Shown one piece after another: positions 50,081 through 64,000 of a stretch of 64,000 nucleotides of DNA. Every line of letters starts with the position of its first letter. Positions within the stretch are counted from its first letter, which is position 1. The notes under the pieces are model-generated. The model had not been told where the DNA came from. It worked only from the letters and a program-made list of their open reading frames with translations, and made no database searches. The translations under genes and the position numbers were made by a program. This stretch comes from Anas platyrhynchos (lineage: Eukaryota; Chordata; Aves; Anseriformes; Anatidae), in assembly GCF_047663525.1 (NCBI RefSeq), contig NC_092611.1:10019001-10083000 (forward strand), read 5' to 3'.

Positions 50081-50163
50081 CAAATGTTATACGAGCTCTA
50101 GGCATGCTATCACAGAGCTCCTTCTGCCTGGGCTGCTTTTTGGGGTCAGTGCAGTCTCCTGCC

Positions 50164-50373
50164 GAGAGGCCATGTTGGGTGCCCGGGGCATTCTGGGAAA
50201 TGTAGTTCTCGGACTCCGACCTTCGGGAGGCCATGTTGGGTGCCCAGAGCATGCCGGGAAATGAAGTTCTGGGACTCCGAACTTCCGGGAGGCCATGTTG
50301 GGTGCCCAGAGCATGCCGGGAAATGTAGTTCTCGGACCCAGAACTTCCGAGTAGTTCTCGGACTCCGAACTTT
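50164..50373. repeat. 61-62 bp tandem array with ZNF143/YY1-type motifs
   Basis: About 3.4 copies; repeat starts (GCCATGTTGGG) at 50169, 50230 and 50292, plus a partial fourth. Each copy pairs GCCATGTTG (YY1-type) with the reverse complement of ACTAYRNNNCCCR, the ZNF143/THAP11 promoter motif. The copies are 50188-50206 (perfect), 50249-50267 (one mismatch) and 50311-50329 (perfect). It sits immediately proximal to the subtelomeric minisatellites. Confidence 0.8.
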
Positions 50374-50838
50374 TAGCGCGGCGCCACTCGGACACATTTA
50401 AGCGCGACGCCGCCCGGAAACATTTTAGCGCGACGCCGCCCGGACACATTTTAGCGCGGCGCCACCCAGACACATTTAAGCGCGGCGCCGCCCGGACACA
50501 TTTTAGCGCGGCGCCACCCGGACACATTTAAGCGCGGCGCCACCCGGAAACATTTTAGCGCGGCGCCACCCGGACACATTTAAGCGCGACGCCGCCCGGA
50601 AACATTTTAGCGCGGCGCCACCCGGACACATTTAAGCGCGGCGCCGCCCGGACACATTTAAGCGCTGCGCCGCCCGGACACATTTTAGCGCGGCGCCGCC
50701 CGGAAACATTAAAGCACGGCGGCATCCGGACACATTTTAGAGCGGCACCGCCCGGACACATTTTAGCGCGGCGCCGCTTTGAAACATTTAAGCGCGGCAC
50801 CGCCCGGACACGTTTTAGCGCGGCGCCGCCCGGACACG
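50374..50838. repeat. 26-bp GC-rich tandem array
   Basis: About 18 copies of a 26-bp unit with core GCGCGGCGCCGCCCGGACAC; AGCGCG starts at 50401, 50427, 50453 and 50479 show the exact 26-bp step. Every unit has several CpGs and most carry the palindrome GGCGCC. Variants differ by single bases. It is not a CRISPR array because there are no unique spacers. Confidence 0.85.
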
Positions 50839-51280
50839 CCACCGGTGCTGTTTCCGGGGGGACACATTTGCGGGGCGCACCGGGGGGGGTCCATGGGGCA
50901 TGGGGGAACCCCAAAGGGGGGGGAACCAAAATGAGGGGGGAACCAAGTGTGCGGGGTGCGGTTGCCGGGGGGATGCATTTGCGGGGCGCACTGGGGGGGG
51001 AACCAAAATGAGGGGGGAACCAAGTGTGCGGGGTGCGTTTGCCGGGGGGACGCATTTGTGGGGCGCACCGGGGGGGGGAACCAAAATGAGGGGGGGAACC
51101 AAGTGTGCACGGTGCGGTTGCCGGGGGGACGCATTTAAGGGGCGCACCGGGGGGAACCAAAATGAGGGGGGAACCAAGTGTGCGGGGTGCGGTTGCCGGG
51201 GGGACGCATTTGCGGGGCGTACCGGGAGAGGAACCAAAATGAGGGGGGAACCAAGTGTGAGGGGTGCAGTTGCCAGGGGG
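50839..51280. repeat. 77-bp G-rich minisatellite, block 1
   Basis: Five to six copies of a 75-79 bp unit with landmarks AACCAAAATGAGGGGGGAAC, AGTGTGCGGGGTGCG and GGGACGCATTTGCGGGGCGC. The copies vary mainly in the length of G runs. The same family recurs in every macrosatellite unit to the right. Confidence 0.85.
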
Positions 51281-51880
51281 TTAGGGTTAGGGTTAGGGTT
51301 TTGGTTTAGGGTTAGGGTTCTTTAGGGTTAGGGCTAGGGTTATCGTTAGGGGGTTAGGGGTAGTGTTAGGGGGGTAGGGTTAGGGTTAGGGCTTAGGGTT
51401 AGGGGTAGTGTTAGCGTTTGGGCTTAGGGTTTGGGTTAGGGTTAGGGTTATGGTCAGGCCGTTAGGTTTAGGGTTAAGGTTAGCGTTAGGGTTAGGGATA
51501 GGGTTAGGCTTAGGGTTCATTAGGGTTAGGGTTAGGGCTTAGGGTTATGGTTAGGGGGTTAGGGTTCGGGTTCGGGGTTAGGGTTAGGTTTAGGCTTAGG
51601 GTTAGGCGGCTTAGGGTTAGGGTTAGGGTTCGGGTTAGGGCTCGGTTTAGGGTTAGGGTTTTGGGTTAGGGTTAGGGTTTGTTAGGGTTAGGGCTAGGGT
51701 TATGGTTAGGGGGTTAGGGTTAGGGTTAGGGGGTTAGGTTTATGGTTAGGGGTTAGTGTTAGGGTTAGGGTTAGGGTTAGGGTTAGGTTTTGGGTTAGTG
51801 TTAGGGTTAGGGTTAGAGGGTGAGGCTTAGGGTTAGGGGTAGGGTTAGGGTTAGGGTCAGGGTCAGAGTCAGAGTCAGGG
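51281..51880 (+). repeat. Degenerate interstitial telomere tract
   Basis: About 600 bp of TTAGGG repeats with frequent variants such as TTTAGGG, GCTAGGG, TTAGCG and TTAGTG. It ends in GGGTCA/GAGTCA variants (about 51855-51880). The G-rich strand is plus, the orientation expected if the chromosome end lies to the right. It is too degenerate to be an active telomere. Confidence 0.9.
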
Positions 51881-52495
51881 TAAGCGTAGTGAGATCCTCT
51901 CCTGAGCCTATGTTATTTTCCAAAGATTGATTCACGGTTTTAAGGTTTCAGGGGTAGGGCACTAGGGTTGGGTTTCAGGGTAAGTATTCTCAGGGTTTAT
52001 GTTTAGGATTTTCAGTTGTTTAGGTTTGGATTTTTAACGGTTAGTATTTTAGGGATTTGGGGGTTAAGGTTTTAAGTTTTTCAGGGTTAGTGTGTTAGGG
52101 TTTTAGAGTTTCTGGGTTGTAGTGTTGAAAGGTTTTTTAGGGTTAGAGTCTTAGGGTTTTCTTTTTGGTCAATTATTTAGGGTTAGGGTTTTAAAATTTT
52201 ATTTTTATTGATTGATTTGATTGATTGATTGATTGATTTTTTCAGGTTAGGTTCTCCAGGGTTAGGGTTTTGAGTGTCCTAATTTTTTGGGTTAGGGTTT
52301 GGAGCATCTTAATTTTTTGCGTTAGGGTTTTGAGCATCTTAATATTTTGTGTTAGTGCTTTGAGCGTCTTATTTTTTTGGATTAGTGTTTGGAGCGTTTT
52401 GGGGTTTAGGTTTTTGGGTTTTTAGGTTTTAGTTTTTGGGTTTAGGTTTTGAGAGTTCCTATTTTTTGGGCTTGGGATTTTTGGGCTTGGGCTTG
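51881..52495. repeat. T-rich degenerate telomere-derived tract
   Basis: T-rich DNA with scattered GGGTTAGGG-like words, a GATT microsatellite (about 52206-52240) and a strict 30-bp tandem repeat. It lacks the regularity of the neighbouring TTAGGG tract and looks like decayed telomeric sequence. Confidence 0.6.
52261..52405. repeat. 30-bp tandem repeat
   Basis: Units start at exactly 52261, 52291, 52321, 52351 and 52381 with GTTAGGGTTT (or a variant), followed by TGAGCATCTTAATTTTTT-like sequence. The register is constant although the copies have diverged. Confidence 0.8.
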
Positions 52496-52822
52496 TGTCA
52501 GGGGTCAGAGGTCAGGGGTCAGAGGTCAGAAGTCAGAGGTCAGAAGTCAGAGGTCAGAGGTCGGGGGTCAGGGGTCGGGGGGCAGAGGTCAGGGGTCAGA
52601 GGTCGGGGGTCAGAGGTCAGGGGTCAGGGGGTCATAAGTCAGGGGTTCAGGGGTCAGGGGTCGGAGGTCAGAGGTCAGGGGTCAGAGGTCAGTGGTCAGT
52701 GGTCAGAGGCCGGAGGTCAGGGGTCGGGTGTCAGGGGTCAGAGGTCAGGGGTCGGGGGGTCAGAGGTCAGGCGTCAGAGGTCAGGGGTCAGATGTCGGGG
52801 GTCAGAGGTCAGGGGTCAGAGG
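52496..52822 (+). repeat. 7-bp array of GAGGTCA/GGGGTCA
   Basis: About 46 consecutive heptamers, mostly GAGGTCA, GGGGTCA or GGGGTCG, with only a few indels. AGGTCA and GGGTCA are nuclear-receptor half-sites, and a 7-bp period places neighbouring half-sites as direct repeats with one-base spacing (DR1). It lies between a degenerate telomere tract and the macrosatellite. Confidence 0.9.
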
Positions 52823-53324
52823 GGGTCCATGGGGCTTGGGGGGACCCCAAGGGTGGGGGGGAACCAAAATGAGGGGGGAACCAAGAGTGCGGGGTACTGT
52901 TTCCGGGGGGACGCATTTGCGGGCGCACCGGGGGACCAAAATGAGGGGGGAACCAAGTGTGCGGGGTTTTGTTTCAGGGGGGGACACATTTTTGGGGCGC
53001 ACCGGGGGGGAACCAAAATGAAGGGGGAACCAAGTGTGCGGGGTGCGGTTGCCTGGGGGACACATTTGCGGGGCGCACCGGGGGGGGGGAAACAAAATGA
53101 AGGGGGAACCAAGTGTGCGGGGTTGTGTTTCCGGGGGGACACATTTGAGGGTCGCACCGGGGGGGGGGAACCAAAATGAGGGGGGAACCAAGTGTGCGGG
53201 GTTGTGTTTCCGGGGGGACACATTTTTGGGGCGCACCGGGGGGAACCAAAATGAGGGGGGAACCAAGTGTGCGGGGTTGTGTTTCCGGGGGGACACATTT
53301 TTGGGGCGCACCAGGGTGACCATG
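52823..53324. repeat. 77-bp minisatellite, block 2
   Basis: About six copies of the G-rich unit after the GTCCATGGGG marker. The last copy ends CACCAGGGTGACCATGGGG, the fixed junction into the telomere-like block. Confidence 0.85.
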
Positions 53325-55619
53325 GGGTTAGAGTTAGGGTTAGGGTTAGATCCGTTAGGGTTAGGGGGTTAGGGTTGGGGTTCGGGGGTTAGGGTTGGGG
53401 GTTTCGGGTTGGGGGTTAGGGGGTTGGGGGTTTAGGGGGTTTGGGGGTTGGGGTTGGGTACTTGGGGGGTTAGGGGTTGGGGGGTTAGGGTTAGAGTGTT
53501 AGGGTTAGATCTGTTAGGGTTGGGGGGTCGGGGGTTAGGGTTGGGGGTTTAGGGTTGGGGGTTAGGGGTTGGGGGGTTAGGGTTAGGGGGTTTGGGGGTT
53601 GGGGTAGGGTACTTGGGGGGTTAGGGGTTGGGGGGTTAGGGTTAGAGGATTAGGGTTAGGGTTAGATCTATTAGGGTTGGGGGGTTAGGGTTAGATCTGT
53701 TAGGGTTAGGGGGTTAGGGTTGGGGGGTCGGGGGTTAGGGTTGGGGGGTTAGAGGGTTAGGGGGTTAGGGTTAGAGGGTTAGGGTTAGGGTTAGATCCGT
53801 TAGGGTTAGGGGGTTATGGTTGGGGGGTCGGGGGTTAGGGTTGGGGGTTTAGGGTTGGAGGTTAGGGGGTTGGGGGGTTAGGGTTAGGGGGTCTGGGGGT
53901 TGGGGTTGGGTACTTGGGGGGTTAGGGGTTGGGGGGTTAGGGTTAGAGGATTAGGGTTAGGGTTAGATCTGTTAGGGTTGGGGGGTTAGGGTTAGATCCG
54001 TTAGGGTTAGGGGGTTAGGGTTGGGTGGTTAGGGCGTTGGGGGTTTAGGGTTAGAGGGTTAGGGTTAGATCAGTTAGGGTTAGGGGGTTAGGGTTGGGGG
54101 GTTAGGGGGTTAGGGGGTTTAGGGTTAGGGTTATTTCCGTTAGGGTTAGGGGGTTATGGTTGGGGAGTCGGGGGTTAGGGTTGGGGGGTTAGGGTTAGGC
54201 TTAGATCCGTTAGGGTTAGGGGGTTAGGGGGTTTGGGCGTTAGGGTTAGAGGGTTAGGCTTAGATCCGTTAGGGTTAGGGGGTTAGAGGGTTTGGGCGTT
54301 AGGGTTAGAGGGTTAGGGTTAGATCCGTTAGGGTTGGGGGGTTAGGGGGTTGGGGGGATTAGGGTTAGAGGGTTAGGGTTAGGCTTAGATCCGTTAGGGT
54401 TAGGGGGTTAGGGGGTTTGGGCGTTAGGGTTAGAGAATTAGGGTTAGATCTGTTAGGGTTAGGGGGTTAGGGTTGGGGGTTTAGGGTTGGGGGTTATGGG
54501 GTTGGGGGGTTAGGGTTAGGGGGTTTGGGGGTTGGGGTTGGGTACTTGGGGTTTAGGATGGGGGGTTAGGGTTAGAGGATTAGGGTTAGCGTTAGATCTG
54601 TTAGGGTTGGGGGGTTAGGGTTAGATCCGTTAGGGTTAGGGGGTTAGGGTTGGGGGGTCGGGGGTTAGGGTTGGGGGGTTAGAGGGTTAGGGGGTTAGGG
54701 TTAGAGGGTTAGGGTTAGGGTTAGATCCGTTAGGGTTAGGGTGTTAGGGTTGGGGGGTCGGGGGTTAGGGTTGGGGGTTTAGGGTTGGGGGTTAGGGGGT
54801 TGGAGGGTTAGGGTTAGGGGGTTTGGGGTTTGGGGTTGGGTACTTGGGGGGTTAGGGGTTGGGGGGTTAGGGTTAGAGGATTAGGGTTAGGGTTAGATCT
54901 GTTAGGGTTGGGGGGTTAGGGTTAGATCCGTTAGGGTTAGGGGGTTAGGGTTGGGTGGTTAGGGCGTTGGGGGTTTAGGGTTAGAGGGTTAGGGTTAGAT
55001 CAGTTAGGGTTAGGGGGTTAGGGTTCGGGGGTTAGGGGGTTGGGGGGTTAGGGTTAGGGTTAGATCCGTTAGGGTTAGGGGGTTATGGTTGGGGAGTCGG
55101 GGGTTAGGGTTGGGGGGTTAGGGTTAGGCTTAGATCCGTTAGGGTTAGGGGGTTAGGGGGTTTGGGCGTTAGGGTTAGAGGGTTAGGGTTAGGTCTGTTA
55201 GGGTTGGGGGGTTAGGGGGTTGGGGGGGTTAGGGTTAGAGGGTTAGGGTTAGGCTTAGATCCGTTAGGGTTAGGGGGTTAGGGGGTTTGGGCGTTAGGGT
55301 TAGAGAATTAGGGTTAGATCCGTTTTGGTTAGGGGGTTAGGGTTGGGGGTTTAGGGTTGGGGGTTATGGGGTTGGGGGGTTAGGGTTAGGGGGTTTGGGG
55401 GTTGGGGTTGGGTACTTGGGGGGTTAGGATGGGGGGTTAGGGTTAGAGGATTAGGGTTAGGGTTAGATCTGTTAGGGTTGGGGGGTTAGGGTTAGATCCG
55501 TTAGGGTTAGGGGGTTAGGGTTGGGGAGTTAGGGTTAGAGGGTTAGGGTTAGATCGTTTGGGGGGTTGGGGGTTAGGGTTGGGCGGTTAGGGTTAGGGGG
55601 TTTGGGGGTTGGGGTTGGG
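53325..55619 (+). repeat. Telomere-like block, unit 1
   Basis: 2.3 kb of TTAGGG, TTGGGG, TTTGGGG and TCGGGGG words in a higher-order pattern, punctuated by TTAGATCCG or TTAGATCTG and by GGGTACTTGGGG. Dense G runs suggest G-quadruplex potential on the plus strand. Confidence 0.85.
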
Positions 55620-56003
55620 TACTTGTGGCCCGCGGGGCGCCCGGTGGCCCTACCGGCGTCACCAGCGGCCACCTTGGGGTCAACGGCGGCGGTTTTGGGG
55701 TCAACGGCAGCGGTTTTGGGGTTTCGGTCTGGGGGGTGCTGACATGCCCCCCCCCGCACCCCCCCAGGCATCCTGGCCCTGCAGCTGCCCCCGGGGGGGC
55801 TCGACGCCGAGTCCTACAGGTGAGAACCAGTCCCCTCCGCCCCCTAAATGCGCCCCCAACCCCCAAAATGCCCCCACACCCTCCCCAAATTGACCCCCCC
55901 CAATTTATTCCCCCCCCTCCAGCGCTTGCCTCCACCTGGCCGAGATGCAGCATCGGGTGTGGAAGGCGCTGGCAGAGTGCGAGCGGCTGCTGCGGGCACG
56001 GGT
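55620..56003 (+). pseudogene. Amplified two-exon gene fragment, copy 1
   Basis: Exon A (55768-55819) follows a C-rich tract ending CCCCCAG and ends TACAG/GTGAG. Exon B (55923-56001) follows CCCCCCTCCAG and ends GCACGG/GTAGG. The 103-bp intron joins them in frame across a split Ser codon. The peptide begins ILALQLPPGGLDAESYSACL and continues LHLAEMQHRVWKALAECERL; the second half looks like an amphipathic helix. I do not recognise the gene. There is no start codon or 3' end, so it is an internal fragment. Upstream within the cassette are GC-rich intron-like sequence and a duplicated GGGGTCAACGGC motif. Confidence 0.6.
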
Positions 56004-56039
56004 AGGACGGGGGGAGAGACAAATTGGGGGGGGGCACCA

Positions 56040-56544
56040 AGGGGGGGGGGTCCATGGGGCTTGGGGGGACCCCAAGGGTGGGGGGGAACCAAAATGAGGG
56101 GGGAACCAAAATGAGGGGGGAACCAAGTTTGCGGGGTGCATTTGCCGAGGGGACGCATTTGCGGGGCGCAACGGGGGGGGGTCAATGGGGCTAGGGGGGA
56201 CCCCAACGGGGGGGCGGAAGGGGGGGGGGAACCAAAATGAGGGGGGAACCAAGTGTGCGGGGTTTTGTTTCCGGGGGGACACATTTGTGGGGAGCATCGG
56301 GGGGGGGGGAACCAAAATGAGGGGGGAACCAAGTGTGCGGGGTTTTGTTTCCGGGGGGACACATTTTTGGGGAGCACCGGGGGGGGGAACCAAAATGAGG
56401 GGGGAACCAAGTGTGCGGGGTTTTGTTTCCGGGGGGACACATTTTTGGGGCGCACCGGGGGGAACCAAAATGAGGGGGGAACCAAGTGTGCGGGGTTGTG
56501 TTTCCGGGGTGACACATTTTTGGGGCGCACCAGGGTGACCATGG
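56040..56544. repeat. 77-bp minisatellite, block 3
   Basis: About five copies with the GTCCATGGGG marker at 56050 and a second marker variant at about 56180. It ends at the same CACCAGGGTGACCATGGGG junction as block 2. Confidence 0.85.
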
Positions 56545-59279
56545 GGTTAGAGTTAGGGTTAGGGTTAGATCCGTTAGGGTTAGGGGGTTAGGGTTGGGGT
56601 TCGGGGGTTAGGGTTGGGGGTTTCGGGTTGGGGGTTAGGGGGTTGGGGGTTTAGGGGGTTTGGGGGTTGGGGTTGGGTACTTGGGGGGTTAGGGGTTGGG
56701 GGGTTAGGGTTAGAGTGTTAGGGTTAGATCTGTTAGGGTTGGGGGGTCGGGGGTTAGGGTTGGGGGTTTAGGGTTGGGGGTTAGGGGTTGGGGGGTTAGG
56801 GTTAGGGGGTTTGGGGGTTGGGGTAGGGTACTTGGGGGGTTAGGGGTTGGGGGGTTAGGGTTAGAGGATTAGGGTTAGGGTTAGATCTATTAGGGTTGGG
56901 GGGTTAGGGTTAGATCCGTTAGGGTTAGGGGGTTAGGGTTGGGGGGTCGGGGGTTAGGGTTGGGGGGTTAGAGGGTTAGGGGGTTAGGGTTAGAGGGTTA
57001 GGGTTAGGGTTAGATCCGTTAGGGTTAGGGGGTTATGGTTGGGGGGTCGGGGGTTAGGGTTGGGGGTTTAGGGTTGGAGGTTAGGGGGTTGGGGGGTTAG
57101 GGTTAGGGGGTCTGGGGGTTGGGGTTGGGTACTTGGGGGGTTAGGGGTTGGGGGGTTAGGGTTAGAGGATTAGGGTTAGGGTTAGATCTGTTAGGGTTGG
57201 GGGGTTAGGGTTAGATCCGTTAGGGTTAGGGGGTTAGGGTTGGGTGGTTAGGGCGTTGGGGGTTTAGGGTTAGAGGGTTAGGGTTAGATCAGTTAGGGTT
57301 AGGGGGTTAGGGTTGGGGGGTTAGGGGGTTGGGGGGTTAGGGTTAGGGTTAGATCCGTTAGGGTTAGGGGGTTATGGTTGGGTGGTTAGGGCGTTGGGGG
57401 GTTAGGGTTAGAGGGTTAGGGTTAGATCTGTTAGGGTTAGGGGGTTAGGGTTGGGGGGTTAGGGGGTTGGGGGTTTAGGGTTAGGGTTAGTTCCGTTAGG
57501 GTTAGGGGGTTATGGTTGGGGAGTCGGGGGTTAGGGTTGGGGGGTTAGGGTTAGGCTTAGATCCGTTAGGGTTAGGGGGTTAGGGGGTTTGGGCGTTAGG
57601 GTTAGAGGGTTAGGCTTAGATCCGTTAGGGTTAGGGGGTTAGAGGGTTTGGGCGTTAGGGTTAGAGGGTTAGGGTTAGATCCGTTAGGGTTGGGGGGTTA
57701 GGGGTTTGGGGGGGTTAGGGTTAGAGGGTTAGGGTTAGGCTTAGATCCGTTAGGGTTAGGGGGTTAGGGGGTTTGGGCGTTAGGGTTAGAGAATTAGGGT
57801 TAGATCTGTTAGGGTTAGGGGGTTTAGGGTTGGGGGTTTAGGGTTGGGGGTTATGGGGTTGGGGGGTTAGGGTTAGGGGGTTTGGGGGTTGGGGTTGGGT
57901 ACTTGGGGGGTTAGGATGGGGGGTTAGGGTTAGAGGATTAGGGTTAGCGTTAGATCTGTTAGGGTTGGGGGGTTAGGGTTAGATCCGTTAGGGTTAGGGG
58001 GTTAGGGTTGGGTGGTCGGGGGTTAGGGTTGGGGGGTTAGAGGGTTAGGGGGTTAGGGTTAGAGGGTTAGGGTTAGGGTTAGATCCGTTAGGGTTAGGGT
58101 GTTAGGGTTGGAGGGTCGGGGGTTAGGGTTGGGGGTTTAGGGTTGGGGGTTAGGGGGTTGGAGGGTTAGGGTTAGGGGGTTTGGGGTTTGGGGTTGGGTA
58201 CTTGGGGGGTTAGGGGTTGGGGGGTTAGGGTTAGAGGATTAGGGTTAGGGTTAGATCTGTTAGGGTTGGGGGGTTAGGGTTAGATCCGTTAGGGTTAGGG
58301 GGTTAGGGTTGGGTGGTTAGGGCGTTGGGGGTTTAGGGTTAGAGGGTTAGGGTTAGATCAGTTAGGGTTAGGGGGTTAGGGTTGGGGGGTTAGGGGGTTG
58401 GGGGGTTAGGGTTAGGGTTAGATCCGTTAGGGTTAGGGGGTTATGGTTGGGGAGTGGGGGGTTAGGGTTGGGGGGTTATGGTTAGGCTTAGATCCGTTAG
58501 GGTTAGGGGGTTAGGGGGTTTGGGCGTTAGGGTTAGAGGGTTAGGGTTAGATCCGTTAGGGTTGGGGGGTTAGGGGGTTGGGGGGGTTAGGGTTAGAGGG
58601 TTAGGGTTAGGCTTAGATCCGTTAGGGTTAGGGGGTTAGGGGGTTTGGGCGTTAGGGTTAGAGGATTAGGGTTAGATCTGTTAGGGTTAGGGGGTTAGGG
58701 TTGGGGGTTTAGGGTTGGGGGTTATGGGGTTGGGGGGTTAGGGTTAGGGGGTTTGGGGGTTGGGGTTGGGTACTTGGGGGGTTAGGATGGGCGGTTAGGG
58801 TTAGAGGATTAGGGTTAGCGTTAGATCTGTTAGGGTTGGGGGGTTAGGGTTAGATCCGTTAGGGTTAGGGGGTTAGGGTTGGGGGGTCGGGGGTTAGGGT
58901 TGGGGGGTTAGAGGGTTAGGGGGTTAGGGTTAGAGGGTTAGGGTTAGGGTTAGATCCGTTAGGGTTAGGGTGTTAGGGTTGGGGGGTCGGGGGTTAGGGT
59001 TGGGGGTTTAGGGTTGGGGGTTAGGGGGTTGGAGGGTTAGGGTTAGGGGGTTTGGGGTTTGGGGTTGGGTACTTGGGGGGTTAGGGGTTGGGGGGTTAGG
59101 GTTAGAGGAGTAGGGTTAGGGTTAGATCTGTTAGGGTTGGGGGGTTAGGGTTAGATCCGTTAGGGTTAGGGGGTTAGGGTTGGGGAGTTAGGGTTAGAGG
59201 GTTAGGGTTAGATCGTTTGGGGGGTTGGGTGGTTAGGGTTGGGCGGTTAGGGTTAGGGGGTTTGGGGGTTGGGGTTGGG
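56545..59279 (+). repeat. Telomere-like block, unit 2
   Basis: 2.7 kb, the longest of the complete blocks. Its first part follows unit 1 almost base for base (offset about 3,220 bp). It then carries additional higher-order repeats with GGGCGTT and TTAGATC landmarks. Confidence 0.85.
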
Positions 59280-59663
59280 TACTTGTGGCCCGCGGGGCGC
59301 CCGGTGGCCCTACCGGCGTCACCAGCGGCCACCTTGGGGTCAACGGCGGCGGTTTTGGGGTCAACGGCAGCGGTTTTGGGGTTTCGGTCTGGGGGGTGCT
59401 GACATGCCCCCCCCCGCACCCCCCCAGGCATCCTGGCCCTGCAGCTGCCCCCGGGGGGGCTCGACGCCGAGTCCTACAGGTGAGAACCAGTCCCCTCCGC
59501 CCCCTAAATGCGCCCCCAACCCCCAAAATGCCCCCACACCCTCCCCAAATTGACCCCCCCCAATTTATTCCCCCCCCTCCAGCGCTTGCCTCCACCTGGC
59601 CGAGATGCAGCATCGGGTGCGGAAGGCGCTGGCAGAGTGCGAGCGGCTGCTGCGGGCACGGGT
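59280..59663 (+). pseudogene. Amplified two-exon gene fragment, copy 2
   Basis: Exons at 59428-59479 and 59583-59661. Over 59281-59700 this copy differs from copy 1 by a single base that I can see (C at 59620 versus T at 55960), changing Trp to Arg in the helix (QHRVRKALAE). Splice sites and frame are intact. Confidence 0.6.
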
Positions 59664-59699
59664 AGGACGGGGGGAGAGACAAATTGGGGGGGGGCACCA

Positions 59700-60594
59700 A
59701 GGGGGGGGGGTCCATGGGGCTTGGGGGGACCCCAAGGGTGGGGGGGAACCAAAATGAGGGGGGAACCAAAATGAGGGGGGAACCAAGTTTGCGGGGTGCA
59801 TTTGCCGGGGGGACGCATTTGCGGGGCGCAACGGGGGGGGGTCCATGGGGCTAGGGGGGACCCCAACGGGGGGGCGGAAGGGGGGGGGGAACCAAAATGA
59901 GGGGGGAACCAAGTGTGCGGGGTTTTGTTTCCGGGGGGACACATTTGTGGGGCGCACCGGGGGGGGAACCAAAATGAGGGGGGAACCAAGTGTGCGGGGT
60001 TTTGTTTCCAGGGGGACACATTTGTGGGGCGCACCGGGGGGGAACCTAAATGAGGGGGGAACCAAGTGTGCGGGGTTTTGTTTCCGGGGGGACACATTTT
60101 TGGGGCGCACCAGGGGGGGAACCAAAATGAGGGGGGAACCAAGTGTGCGGGGTTTTGTTTCCGGGGGGACCCATTTGTGGGGTGCATCTGGGGGGGGAAC
60201 CAAAATGAGGGGGGAACCAAGTGTGCGGGGTTGTGTTTCCGGGGGGACACATTTGTGGGGCGTACCGGGGGGGGGGGGGAATCAAAATGAGGGGGGAACC
60301 AAGTGTGCGGGGTTTTGTTTCCGGGGGGACACATTTGTGGGTCGCACCAGGGGCGGGAACCAAAATGAGGGGGGAACCAAGTGTGCGGGGTTTTGTTTCC
60401 GGGGGGACACATTTTTGGGGTGCACCGGGGGGGGGAACCAAAATGAGGGGGGAACCAAGTGTGCGGGGTTGTGTTTCCGGGGGGACACATTTTTGGGGCG
60501 CACCGGGGGGGAACCAAAATGAGGGGGGAACCAAGTGTGCGGGGTTGTGTTTCCGGGGGGACACATTTTTGGGGCGCACCAGGGTGACCATGGG
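59700..60594. repeat. 77-bp minisatellite, block 4
   Basis: The longest minisatellite block, roughly ten to eleven copies. Variation is in G-run length and a few substitutions (CGCACC/TGCATC, GGACACATT/GGACCCATT). Confidence 0.85.
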
Positions 60595-62831
60595 GTTAGA
60601 GTTAGGGTTAGGGTTAGATCCGTTAGGGTTAGGGGGTTAGGGTTGGGGTTCGGGGGTTAGGGTTGGGGGTTTCGGGTTGGGGGTTAGGGGGTTGGGGTTT
60701 TAGGGGGTTTGGGGGTTGGGGTTGGGTACTTGGGGGGTTAGGGGTTGGGGGGTTAGGGTTAGAGTGTTAGGGTTAGATCTGTTAGGGTTGGGGGGTCGGG
60801 GGTTAGGGTTGGGGGTTTAGGGTTGGGGGTTAGGGGTTGGGGTGTTAGGGTTAGGGGGTTTGGGGGTTGGGGTAGGGTACTTGGGGGGTTAGGGGTTGGG
60901 GGGTTAGGGTTAGAGGATTAGGGTTAGGGTTAGATCTATTAGGGTTGGGGGGTTAGGGTTAGATCCGTTAGGGTTAGGGGGTTAGGGTTGGGGGGTCGGG
61001 GGTTAGGGTTGGGGGGTTAGAGGGTTAGGGGGTTAGGGTTAGAGGGTTAGGGTTAGGGTTAGATCCGTTAGGGTTAGGGGGTTATGGTTGGGGGGTCGGG
61101 GGTTAGGGTTGGGGGTTTAAGGTTGGAGGTTAGGGGGTTGGGGGGTTAGGGTTAGGGGGTCTGGGGGTTGGGGTTGGGTACTTGGGGGGTAGGGGTTGGG
61201 GGGTTAGGGTTAGAGGATTAGGGTTAGGTTTAGATCTGTTAGGGTTGGGGGGTGAGGGTTAGATCCGTTAGGGTTAGGGGGTTAGGGTTGGGTGGTTAGG
61301 GCGTTGGGGGTTTAGGGTTAGAGGGTTAGATCCGTTAGGGTTAGGGGGTTATGGTTGGGTGGTTAGGGCGTTGGGGGGTTAGGGTTAGAGGGTTAGGGTT
61401 AGATCTGTTAGGGTTAGGGGGTTAGGGTTGGGGGGTTAGGGGGTTGGGGGTTTAGGGTTAGGGTTAGTTCCGTTAGGGTTAGGGGGTTATGGTTAGGGAG
61501 TCGGGGGTTAGGGTTGGGGGGTTAGGGTTAGGCTTAGATCCGTTAGGGTTAGGGGGTTAGGGGGTTTGGGCGTTAGGGTTAGAGGGTTAGGCTTAGATCC
61601 GTTAGGGTTAGGGGGTTAGAGGGTTTGGGCGTTAGGGTTAGAGGGTTAGGGTTAGATCCGTTAGGGTTGGGGGGTTAGGGGGTTGGGGGGGTTAGGGTTA
61701 GAGGGTTAGGGTTAGGCTTAGATCCGTTAGGGTTAGGGGGTTAGGGGGTTTGGGCGTTAGGGTTAGAGAATTAGGGTTAGATCTGTTAGGGTTAGGGGGT
61801 TAGGGTTGGGGGTTTAGGGTTGGGGGTTATGGGGTTGGGGGGTTAGGGTTAGGGGGTTTGGGGGTTGGGGTTGGGTACTTGGGGGGTTAGGATGGGGGGT
61901 TAGGGTTAGAGGATTAGGGTTAGCGTTAGATCTGTTAGGGTTGGGGGGTTAGGGTTAGATCCGTTAGGGTTGGGGGTTTAGGGTTGGGGGTTAGGGTTAG
62001 ATCAGTTAGGGTTAGGGGGTTAGGGTTGGGGGGTTTGGGGTTTGGGGTTGGGTACTTGGGGGGTTAGGGGTTGGGGGGTTAGGGTTAGACGATTAGGGTT
62101 AGGGTTAGATCTGTTAGGGTTGGGGGGTTAGGGTTAGATCCGTTAGGGTTAGGGGGTTAGGGTTGGGTGGTTAGGGCGTTGGGGGTTTAGGGTTAGAGGG
62201 TTAGGGTTAGATCAGTTAGGGTTAGGGGGTTAGGGTTGGGGGGTTAGGGGGTTGGGGGGTTAGGGTTAGGGTTAGATCCGTTAGGGTTAGGGGGTTATGG
62301 TTGGGGAGTCGGGGGTTAGGGTTGGGGGGTTATGGTTAGGCTTAGATCCGTTAGGGTTAGGTGGTTAGGGGGTTTGGGCGTTAGGGTTAGAGGGTTAGGG
62401 TTAGGTCTGTTAGGGTTGGGGGGTTAGGGGGTTGGGGGGGTTAGGGTTAGAGGGTTAGGGTTAGGCTTAGATCCGTTAGGGTTAGGGGGTTAGGGGGTTT
62501 GGGCGTTAGGGTTAGAGGATTAGGGTTAGATCCGTTTTGGTTAGGGGGTTAGGGTTGGGGGTTTAGGGTTGGGGGTTATGGGGTTGGGGGGTTAGGGTTA
62601 GGGGGTTTGGGGGTTGGGGTTGGGTACTTGGGGGGTTAGGATGGGGGGTTAGGGTTAGAGGATTAGGGTTAGGGTTAGATCTGTTAGGGTTGGGGGGTTA
62701 GGGTTAGATCCGTTAGGGTTAGGGGGTTAGGGTTGGGGAGTTAGGGTTAGAGGGTTAGGGTTAGATCGTTTGGGGGGTTGGGGGTTAGGGTTGGGCGGTT
62801 AGGGTTAGGGGGTTTGGGGGTTGGGGTTGGG
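60595..62831 (+). repeat. Telomere-like block, unit 3
   Basis: 2.2 kb, the shortest complete block. It shares the start of units 1 and 2 and lacks some internal higher-order repeats (for example around 61970-62040). Confidence 0.85.
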
Positions 62832-63215
62832 TACTTGTGGCCCGCGGGGCGCCCGGTGGCCCTACCGGCGTCACCAGCGGCCACCTTGGGGTCAACGGCG
62901 GCGGTTTTGGGGTCAACGGCAGCGGTTTTGGGGTTTCGGTCTGGGGGGTGCTGACATGCCCCCCCCCGCACCCCCCCAGGCATCCTGGCCCTGCAGCTGC
63001 CCCCGGGGGGGCTCGACGCCGAGTCCTACAGGTGAGAACCAGTCCCCTCCGCCCCCTAAATGCGCCCCCAACCCCCAAAATGCCCCCACACCCTCCCCAA
63101 ATTGACCCCCCCCAATTTATTCCCCCCCCTCCAGCGCTTGCCTCCACCTGGCCGAGATGCAGCATCGGGTGCGGAAGGCGCTGGCAGAGTGAGAGCGGCT
63201 GGTGCGGGCACGGGT
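62832..63215 (+). pseudogene. Amplified two-exon gene fragment, copy 3, with stop
   Basis: Exons at 62980-63031 and 63135-63213, at a constant 3,552-bp offset from copy 2. Splice sites are kept, but exon B has TGA at 63190-63192 where copies 1 and 2 have TGC, plus a CTG-to-GTG change four codons on. This copy therefore cannot encode the full peptide. It is the most diverged of the three. Confidence 0.6.
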
Positions 63216-63239
63216 AGGACGGGGGAGGAGACAAAATGG

Positions 63240-63904
63240 GGGGGGGGCACCAAGGGGGGGGGGTCCATGGGGCTAGGGGGGACCCCAAGGATGGGGCGGG
63301 GGAAGGGGGAACCAAAATGAGACGGGAACCAAGTGTGCGGGGTGCTGTTTCCGGGGGGACACATTTGTGGGGCGCACCGGGGGGGGGAACCAAAATGAGG
63401 GGGGAACCAAGTGTGCGGGGTTTTATTTCCGGGGGGACCCATTTGTGGGGCGCACCGGGGGGGGGAACCAAAATGAGGGGGGAACCAAGTGTGCGGGGTT
63501 TTGTTTCCGGGGGGACCCATTTGTGGGGCGCACCGGGGGGGGGAACCAAAATGAGGGGGGAACCAAGTGTGCAGGGATTTGTTTCCGGGGGAACCCATTT
63601 GTGGGGCGCACCGGGGGGGGGAACCAAAATGAGGGGGGAACCAAGTGTGCGGGGTTTTGTTTCCGGGGGTACCCATTTGTGGGGCGCACCGGGGGGGGGA
63701 ACCAAAATGACGGGGGAACCAAGTGTGCGGGGTTATGTTTCCGGGGGGACCCATTTGTGGGGCGCACCGGGTGGGGGGGGAACCAAAATGAGGGGGGAAC
63801 CAAGTGTGCGGGGTTTTGTTTCCGGGGGGACCCATTTGTGGGGCGCACAGGGGGGGGAACCAAAATGAGTTGGGGGGGGAACCAAAATGAGAATGGGGGT
63901 CCAT
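63240..63904. repeat. 77-bp minisatellite, block 5
   Basis: About seven to eight copies. It differs from earlier blocks by GGACCCATTTGTGGGG in most units, so it belongs to a separate homogenised subfamily. Confidence 0.85.
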
Positions 63905-64000
63905 GGGGTTAGGGTTAGGGTTAGATCCGTTAGGGTTAGGGGGTTAGGGTTGGGGTTTGGGGGTTAGGGTTGGGGGTTTAGGGTTGGGGGTTAGGGGGTT
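63905..64000 (+). repeat. Telomere-like block, unit 4 (cut by window edge)
   Basis: The TTAGATCCG-punctuated telomere-like sequence restarts and runs off the window. The array therefore continues, and the true telomere is not in view. Confidence 0.85.

Follow-up and report, generated by a model that had tools for sequence, protein, structure and literature searches.

A subterminal macrosatellite of the duck genome that combines degenerate telomeric DNA with a gene segment of probable PHLDB-family origin

Apes are already known to carry gene-seeded subterminal caps, and worms and mouse embryonic stem (ES) cells can rebuild telomeres from internal blocks. In C. elegans, TALT1 (TALT, template for alternative lengthening of telomeres, ALT) was described as holding the promoter and the first exon of a gene between telomere-like sequences of one orientation; this block was duplicated in cis beside a telomere and later copied to chromosome ends under ALT (PMC4595603). 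In mouse ES cells, a subtelomeric block of ~7.4 kb (mTALT) was reported to be used likewise, in head-to-tail order (PMC7889907). The ape caps, as described in PMC12154684, contain a piece of PGM5 in Pan and a MALD1 intron in gorilla, amplified with the pCht (StSat) satellite; the spacers, hypomethylated and of 30 kbp, are present in hundreds of copies and exchanged between non-homologous ends, with no credible spliced transcripts in that account. Here, we describe a macrosatellite of the duck, Anas platyrhynchos, whose genome shows the anatomy of both kinds together. The array was found in a stretch of 64,000 nucleotides (hereafter, the window; C25:10,019,001-10,083,000 of a 42-contig, 1.26-Gb assembly, whose contigs bear C-numbers), where it starts at position 52,823 and continues beyond the right edge. 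We consider it, with a probability of about 0.8, to be a subterminal macrosatellite made of a 3' gene part of the PHLDB family (most likely PHLDB3), gene-derived minisatellites and degenerate telomeric DNA, spread by recombination.

Each unit comprised, in this order, a telomere-like block, a gene segment and a 17/78-bp minisatellite, with repeat distances of 3,660 and 3,552 bp (Table 1). The gene segment, of ~440 bp, included exon A (52 bp), an intron of 103 bp and exon B (79 bp), with canonical splice sites and an A-B split codon in frame in all three window copies. Both this arrangement and the start of the array agreed with the first-pass annotation, which had been made from the sequence alone; as a correction to it, exon B of the third copy was interrupted by an in-frame TGA. 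Contig C25 (10,142,500 bp) ends 59.5 kb past the window. More gene-segment copies were present in the 10 kb following the window; in the final 10 kb of the contig there were four, together with a perfect TTAGGG run of 258 bp.

As in the TALT systems, an internal genomic block lay between telomere-like sequences of the same orientation in the window units, and units were arranged in tandem. Copies were present on at least 28 of the 42 contigs, close to an end in 15 of the 16 with placed ends. As regards a donor and a reservoir, five interstitial loci and one long array copy on C22 were found, with 95-96% identity over 2.0 kb. In contrast to TALT, the duck array belongs to a natural genome, several ends of which bear runs of canonical telomere repeat, and its units hold degenerate telomere-like blocks and minisatellites, in about 2,460 copies; a telomerase defect or ALT activity is not known for the duck arrays, and the likeness is one of structure. 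Like the ape caps, the array has copies of a gene-derived duplication scattered through satellite DNA at many chromosome ends. It differs from them in its partner repeats, which are telomere-like DNA and minisatellites (no search for pCht was made), in its repeat distance, about 2-4 kb in most places listed and up to ~9 kb on C2, and in the presence of exons in the gene piece.

Two bird systems can also be compared. PO41 and the Z-macrosatellite are galliform subtelomeric tandem repeats, like the duck array, PO41 being transcribed from both strands; they are set apart by their description in PMC4301066, which does not mention a gene piece. In the "sequence stuttering" described for chicken dot chromosomes, exon and intron pieces expand into repeats, strictly locally inside genes (PMC12954441). 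The 26-bp and 78-bp minisatellites of the duck resemble an exon (X4, see below) and the intron after exon B, respectively, but the duck product is found on many contig ends and is not local. No description of the present repeat was found in the open literature, where the search aimed at the repeat itself was thin.

The gene segment and its longer forms

The forms of the segment were nested, with a common 3' end. The longest array copy, on C22, contained exons X1, X2, X3, X4, A and B within 2.0 kb, and was the only array copy with X1 and X2. Its exons X1 to X3 were open and GT-AG bounded, with X2 and X3 joined over a split codon, and X2+X3 encoded most of a PH domain (Pfam PF00169, E = 2.2e-8, 35 bits versus a cut-off of 25.1; best PDB match, SET binding factor 1, E = 1.1e-7). 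The acceptor before X4 was AA instead of AG. Five interstitial loci (C17 at ~4.911 Mb, C31 at ~1.377 Mb, C38 at ~2.122 Mb, C40 at ~2.818 Mb, and C41 at ~0.546 Mb) matched this C22 query from base 11 to 2018-2021 of 2,021, introns included; the lengths of C17 and C31 place the loci there as internal. An additional partial match was located on C41 at 2.13 Mb (91% over 187 bases). Since the C22 copy and the five interstitial loci share 2.0 kb with the upstream PH-domain exons, the segment is real gene DNA, and the exon likeness reported by the first-pass annotation does not appear to be fortuitous, given also the 2,460 occurrences of a 26-base word of the segment (see below). Interstitial loci scored equally in pairs (2164 each for C17/C31, 2088 each for C40/C41), which may reflect a recent duplication between small chromosomes or a duplicated assembly.

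The shorter nested forms, retaining X3, X4 or only A and B, amounted to about 50, 1,370 and 1,040 copies, respectively. X3 was kept in 50 array copies with up to three mismatches (35 on C2, 8 on C13, 2 on C35, and 1 each on C1, C4, C11, C12, and C22); the total of 56 matches also included the five interstitial loci and C25:8.09 Mb, and one further X3 copy, on C32, was identified from the match to the 2.0-kb query. A segment flank other than TACTTG (up to three mismatches) was detected at 1,419 places, versus 1 and 11 for the control patterns. Among the 100 of these places listed, 97 exhibited the TCYCAG flank that accompanies X4. On C29, C33, C36, and C37, the X4 form started at GTACTTG, which corresponds to position 1390 of the C22 query. 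The window form (A-B), from which another 237 bp flanked by TGG triplets is missing, was counted by subtraction between counts made at different mismatch limits.

A TAG was found after the CTGACC of X4 in the four array copies read, in frame in three of them, the frame of the fourth (locus L014) being shifted by one extra base upstream; the PH domain is broken at X4 in these copies. The interstitial copies may share this break, because a 24-base query for X4 from which the six array bases had been removed had no match anywhere in the genome.

Outside the array and the five loci, the best protein matches were obtained at C1:93.48 Mb (45% for X2 and 82% for X3) and C25:8.09 Mb (42% and 83%). A PHLDB1/2 C-terminus matched just these two loci when used as a genome query, and we take them to be PHLDB2- and PHLDB1-like, respectively. 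With PF00169 above its cut-off and PHLDB-type C-termini at the closest other loci, the domain appears to be of the PHLDB type. The PHLDB family is described as having three members, the PH domain of PHLDB3 being C-terminal (PMC7278972, PMC5196188). As the nearest relatives in the genome are the PHLDB1- and PHLDB2-like loci, the parent gene is likely to be the third member, PHLDB3. A PHLDB3-like gene would agree with the first-pass suggestion that the parent could be one of the GC-rich genes whose assembly is difficult in birds, although the suggestion is not proved.

The 43-residue A+B peptide, which the first-pass annotation had not recognised, still had no homologue, with chance-level matches only in Pfam (Methyltransf_11, E = 0.14) and in PDB (branchpoint-bridging protein, E = 0.1); the longer joined reading matched no Pfam family, with a best PDB E-value of 0.031. 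In a tblastn search of the genome with the peptide, the best 150 of 4,786 candidates were all at array-like places, and the parent gene could be hidden among the candidates below these 150. Patterns requiring a silent difference in exon B gave two matches on C10 and seven on array-bearing contigs. The five interstitial loci were not among these matches, so they are either equal to the consensus there or more than three mismatches away.

Copies across the genome and their variation

A 26-base word of the segment, searched in the whole genome with at most one mismatch, gave 2,460 occurrences (1,074 + 1,386), a count that depends on the assembly. The control patterns gave 668 and 700 matches; as the reversed pattern is one base off TCCCAG-type sequence, we take these as real copies and not as a chance rate. 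Among the matches listed, copies were present on C1, C2, C4, C5, C7, C10-C19, C22-C25, C27-C29, C31-C33, and C35-C37, 27 of these contigs being counted by the segment or its 5' end and C11 by exon X3 alone. For 15 of the 16 copy-bearing contigs with both ends placed, the listed array copies were at most ~0.27 Mb from a contig end, on the minus strand at left ends and on the plus strand at right ends, the gene strand thus pointing to the tip. For the remaining 12 of the 28, we infer an end position from the strand.

To describe sequence variation, we aligned 71 copies from 15 contigs, each covering at least 400 of the 441 bases; the alignment leaves out shorter matches and four C19 copies (loci L004, L005, L007, and L008). 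Copies differed on average by 1.04% on the same contig and by 1.81% on different contigs. A gap as wide did not arise in 1,000 label shuffles, and for 64 of the 71 copies a nearest neighbour, ties included, was on their own contig. The exchange between ends described for ape caps can be compared with these values: the between-contig distance is just 1.81%, yet copies cluster by contig. The lone C35 copy was the most divergent (5.9% from the rest). With an avian substitution rate, the divergence of 4-5% would point to about ten million years, which is a guess at most.

In the exons, 26 distinct base changes relative to the consensus were observed: 17 missense, 7 silent, and 2 stop changes when taken singly, versus an expectation without selection of 65-69% missense, 28-33% silent, and 2-3% nonsense. 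A real stop in A+B was found in just one of the 71 copies, the other "stop" change being part of a two-base change to W. The W of the peptide read in the first-pass annotation (HRVWK) proved not to be typical, as the underlying base was T in 3 and C in 68 of the 71 copies. Per site, the exons carried 0.20 distinct substitutions and the 5' intron 0.16; the values for the short intron (0.44) and the 3' intron (0.42) are inflated by alignment in C and G runs. We read the exon variation as drift with homogenisation; since the exons show no coding constraint in the 71 copies, the array is not a working gene family.

The repeats around the segment seemed to be related to the gene as well. TACTTG was present seven or eight times in each of telomere-like blocks 1 to 3, versus 0.1-0.2 expected in each from base composition. 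Since TACTTG lies in an intron of the long form, its repeats may be scars where a gene segment was lost from between telomere-like stretches. The 26-bp minisatellite aligned to exon X4 with a score of 27 (the best of 2,000 composition shuffles reached 26), and for the 78-bp minisatellite and the intron that follows exon B, the alignment surpassed all of 1,000 shuffles, with low complexity calling for caution; the minisatellites appear to descend from the gene's own exon and intron. G-quadruplex-type motifs covered 39% of the array G-strand, versus 0.5% of the first 50 kb of the window. The gene strand of the array is the G-rich strand, which is the direction of transcription of telomeric repeat-containing RNA (TERRA); end transcripts could therefore carry spliceable gene exons.

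Origin of the array

In the explanation that we favour, a PHLDB3-like segment with its own minisatellites would have been copied next to a chromosome end and would then have acquired telomere-like DNA on both sides. The unit would have spread by amplification in tandem and by exchange from end to end, with break-induced replication, unequal exchange, and extrachromosomal circles as candidate routes, and internal deletions would have generated shorter units, which took over many arrays. The exons would be passengers of this amplification, and any role would be structural, as homology for end-to-end exchange, as a buffer, or as a heterochromatin cap. The core of the first-pass proposal, in which a telomere captured part of a gene that was then amplified together with telomeric sequence, is supported by the upstream PH exons of the longer form and by the canonical telomere found after several arrays. 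It is refined by the presence of copies on at least 28 contigs instead of a single end and by the lack of coding constraint in the gene piece. The intermediates are preserved, as an interstitial segment, a long array copy, an X3 form, an X4 form, and an A-B form, and this series allows capture, deletion, and spread to be put in order. It also makes the maintenance of vertebrate germline chromosome ends by internal DNA testable, and the arrays may preserve, in nature, the traces of chromosome tips being rebuilt with such DNA. A natural TALT in the vertebrate germline, that is, ends once rebuilt or still buffered by a gene-plus-telomere unit through an ALT-like pathway, is a tentative and rather doubtful proposition.

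Several points weigh against the favoured explanation. No donor-to-reservoir step was observed, and the presence of five interstitial loci instead of one blurs the donor. The telomere-like blocks are degenerate, not canonical, and may have grown on their own, and plain subtelomeric unequal exchange with no ALT episode gives much the same picture. The one contig departing from the terminal placement, C10 (25.4 Mb), carries minus-strand copies in its middle, at 12.113, 12.364 and 12.450-12.472 Mb, with no segment copies in the stretch read between them (12.430-12.449 Mb); this site is either an old chromosome end that is now internal, through fusion or inversion, or a scaffolding misjoin. The name PHLDB3, although the likely one, was reached by elimination and from family sequence. 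Exons A and B match nothing known, and they lie downstream of a PH domain that is normally C-terminal in PHLDB proteins; they could accordingly be exons of a neighbouring gene or a lineage-specific tail, and both readings stand. Finally, exons had no indel columns in the 71 copies, whereas their flanks had, which leans towards constraint, although these parts also differ in homopolymers.

This last observation would suit a subtelomeric multicopy gene family that still makes protein or spliced RNA, as DUX4 in D4Z4. D4Z4 is a subtelomeric macrosatellite with a gene in each unit, and the duck array likewise has a gene-derived segment per unit. Such a family would also account for the conservation of the four splice sites, each of which shows its commonest string in 62 to 68 of the 71 copies, for the rarity of stops in A+B, and for a G-rich gene strand that runs in the direction of TERRA. 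However, the proportions of missense, silent, and stop changes are close to those expected without selection, the window form consists of internal exons only, and A+B, with 131 nt, would shift the frame in A-B-A-B splicing. No intact open reading frame under selection was found, and, unlike D4Z4, the array occupies many contigs; we regard a functional family as improbable. It is even harder to see the segment as GC-rich, intron-like minisatellite DNA that mimics two exons by coincidence. The peptide and the longer joined reading, which find no Pfam or PDB homologue, are what such a coincidence would give, but in the C22 copy the PH-domain exons are closely followed by A and B, and the 2.0-kb stretch recurs at five other loci, by which coincidence is largely refuted for the segment as a whole and left as the least probable of the readings considered here.

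Ordinary subtelomeric duplication and unequal exchange, similar to that of ape caps and with no telomere-maintenance episode, is a version of the favoured explanation, to which we give about even odds. Bird subtelomeric duplications are described as leaning towards interchromosomal events (PMC13431229), ape caps as holding gene-derived spacers at ~413-700 copies (PMC12154684), and the duck copies are more similar within than between contigs; yet exchange alone leaves the same-orientation pairing of gene and telomere-like DNA in each unit unexplained. Uptake and dispersal of the gene piece by a mobile element such as a Helitron would explain a multi-exon, intron-bearing segment at many loci, five of them interstitial. 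The position mostly near contig ends, the fixed orientation, and the 5' limits that vary within arrays make this very unlikely (no search for element termini was made). We attach an equally small probability to an assembly artefact, through false duplication or scaffolding: runs of 2,500 or 5,000 N were present in seven of the loci read at or near contig starts, 9 of the 16 contigs were sized in multiples of 2,500, probably a trace of scaffolding or trimming, and the interstitial pairs had equal scores, but variants were contig-specific, different contigs held distinct forms, and several ends carried canonical telomere runs. Whatever their history, long-read assemblies can hold thousands of such exon-like fragments, which annotation might call genes.

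Features of the window and minor observations

The features of the array and of the DNA proximal to it are listed in Table 1.

Table 1. Features at the right side of the window (positions in the window; TRF, Tandem Repeats Finder).
Feature	Position	Strand	Remark
62-bp repeat, 3 copies	50162..50349	+	TRF; proximal to array
26-bp CpG-rich minisatellite, 18 copies	50371..50837	+	TRF; CpG observed/expected 1.64
77-bp minisatellite, proximal block	50916..51280	+	TRF
Degenerate TTAGGG block, proximal module	51278..51881	+	TRF
GTCAGAG 7-bp repeat	52497..52822	+	TRF; abuts macrosatellite start
79-bp minisatellite, first incomplete unit	52855..53316	+	TRF
Telomere-like block 1	53320..55625	+	G-strand towards chromosome end; 7 TACTTG motifs
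Gene segment copy 1	55620..56060	+	TACTTG/TGGCCC junction, intron, exon A, intron, exon B, intron
Exon A, copy 1	55768..55819	+	ILALQLPPGGLDAESY, split codon next
Intron, copy 1	55820..55922	+	103 bp, GT-AG
Exon B, copy 1	55923..56001	+	carries rare R to W variant
17/78-bp minisatellite, unit 1	56081..56530	+	TRF
Telomere-like block 2	56539..59285	+	8 TACTTG motifs
Gene segment copy 2	59280..59720	+	frame open; exon A 59428-59479, exon B 59583-59661
17/78-bp minisatellite, unit 2	59741..60584	+	TRF
Telomere-like block 3	60588..62837	+	7 TACTTG motifs
Gene segment copy 3	62832..63272	+	exon A 62980-63031, exon B 63135-63213, in-frame TGA 63190-63192
78-bp minisatellite, unit 3	63305..63899	+	TRF
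Telomere-like block 4	63901..64000	+	cut by window end

Within the 62-bp repeat (50188-50329), three matches to a ACTACAWTTCCCRGMATGC-type motif, with at most two mismatches, were found on the minus strand at 50188, 50249, and 50311, versus none in 100 shuffles; we take this motif to be a ZNF143/THAP11 site. These motifs, beside the CpG-rich 26-bp minisatellite, possibly mark promoter-like DNA adjoining the array. The motif had no exact match in the 38 other loci read, which weighs against its generality. On C35 (locus L019), sequence resembling the 62-bp repeat and a block resembling the GTCAGAG repeat were both noticed by eye.

Canonical TTAGGG was observed near several arrays; on C31, a perfect run of 3,774 bp lay within the final 10 kb. 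At the start of C18 (locus L036, 3223-4634), a 1,188-bp perfect telomere run was located near a truncated gene segment, which ran into telomere-like DNA before exon A, at another internal breakpoint. One C10 copy (locus L010, 5636-5698) consisted of the first 63 bases of the segment only, directly followed by telomere-like DNA. The copies of C10:12.11-12.47 Mb were bordered, as judged by eye, by CR1-like and endogenous retrovirus (ERV)-like sequence. ERV-like stretches, named by eye and in passing, were also seen beside and inside arrays. Between two segment copies on C33 (6,291,701-6,293,300; locus L038), a stretch resembling a long terminal repeat was noticed by eye, and this retroelement may have been amplified together with the unit there.

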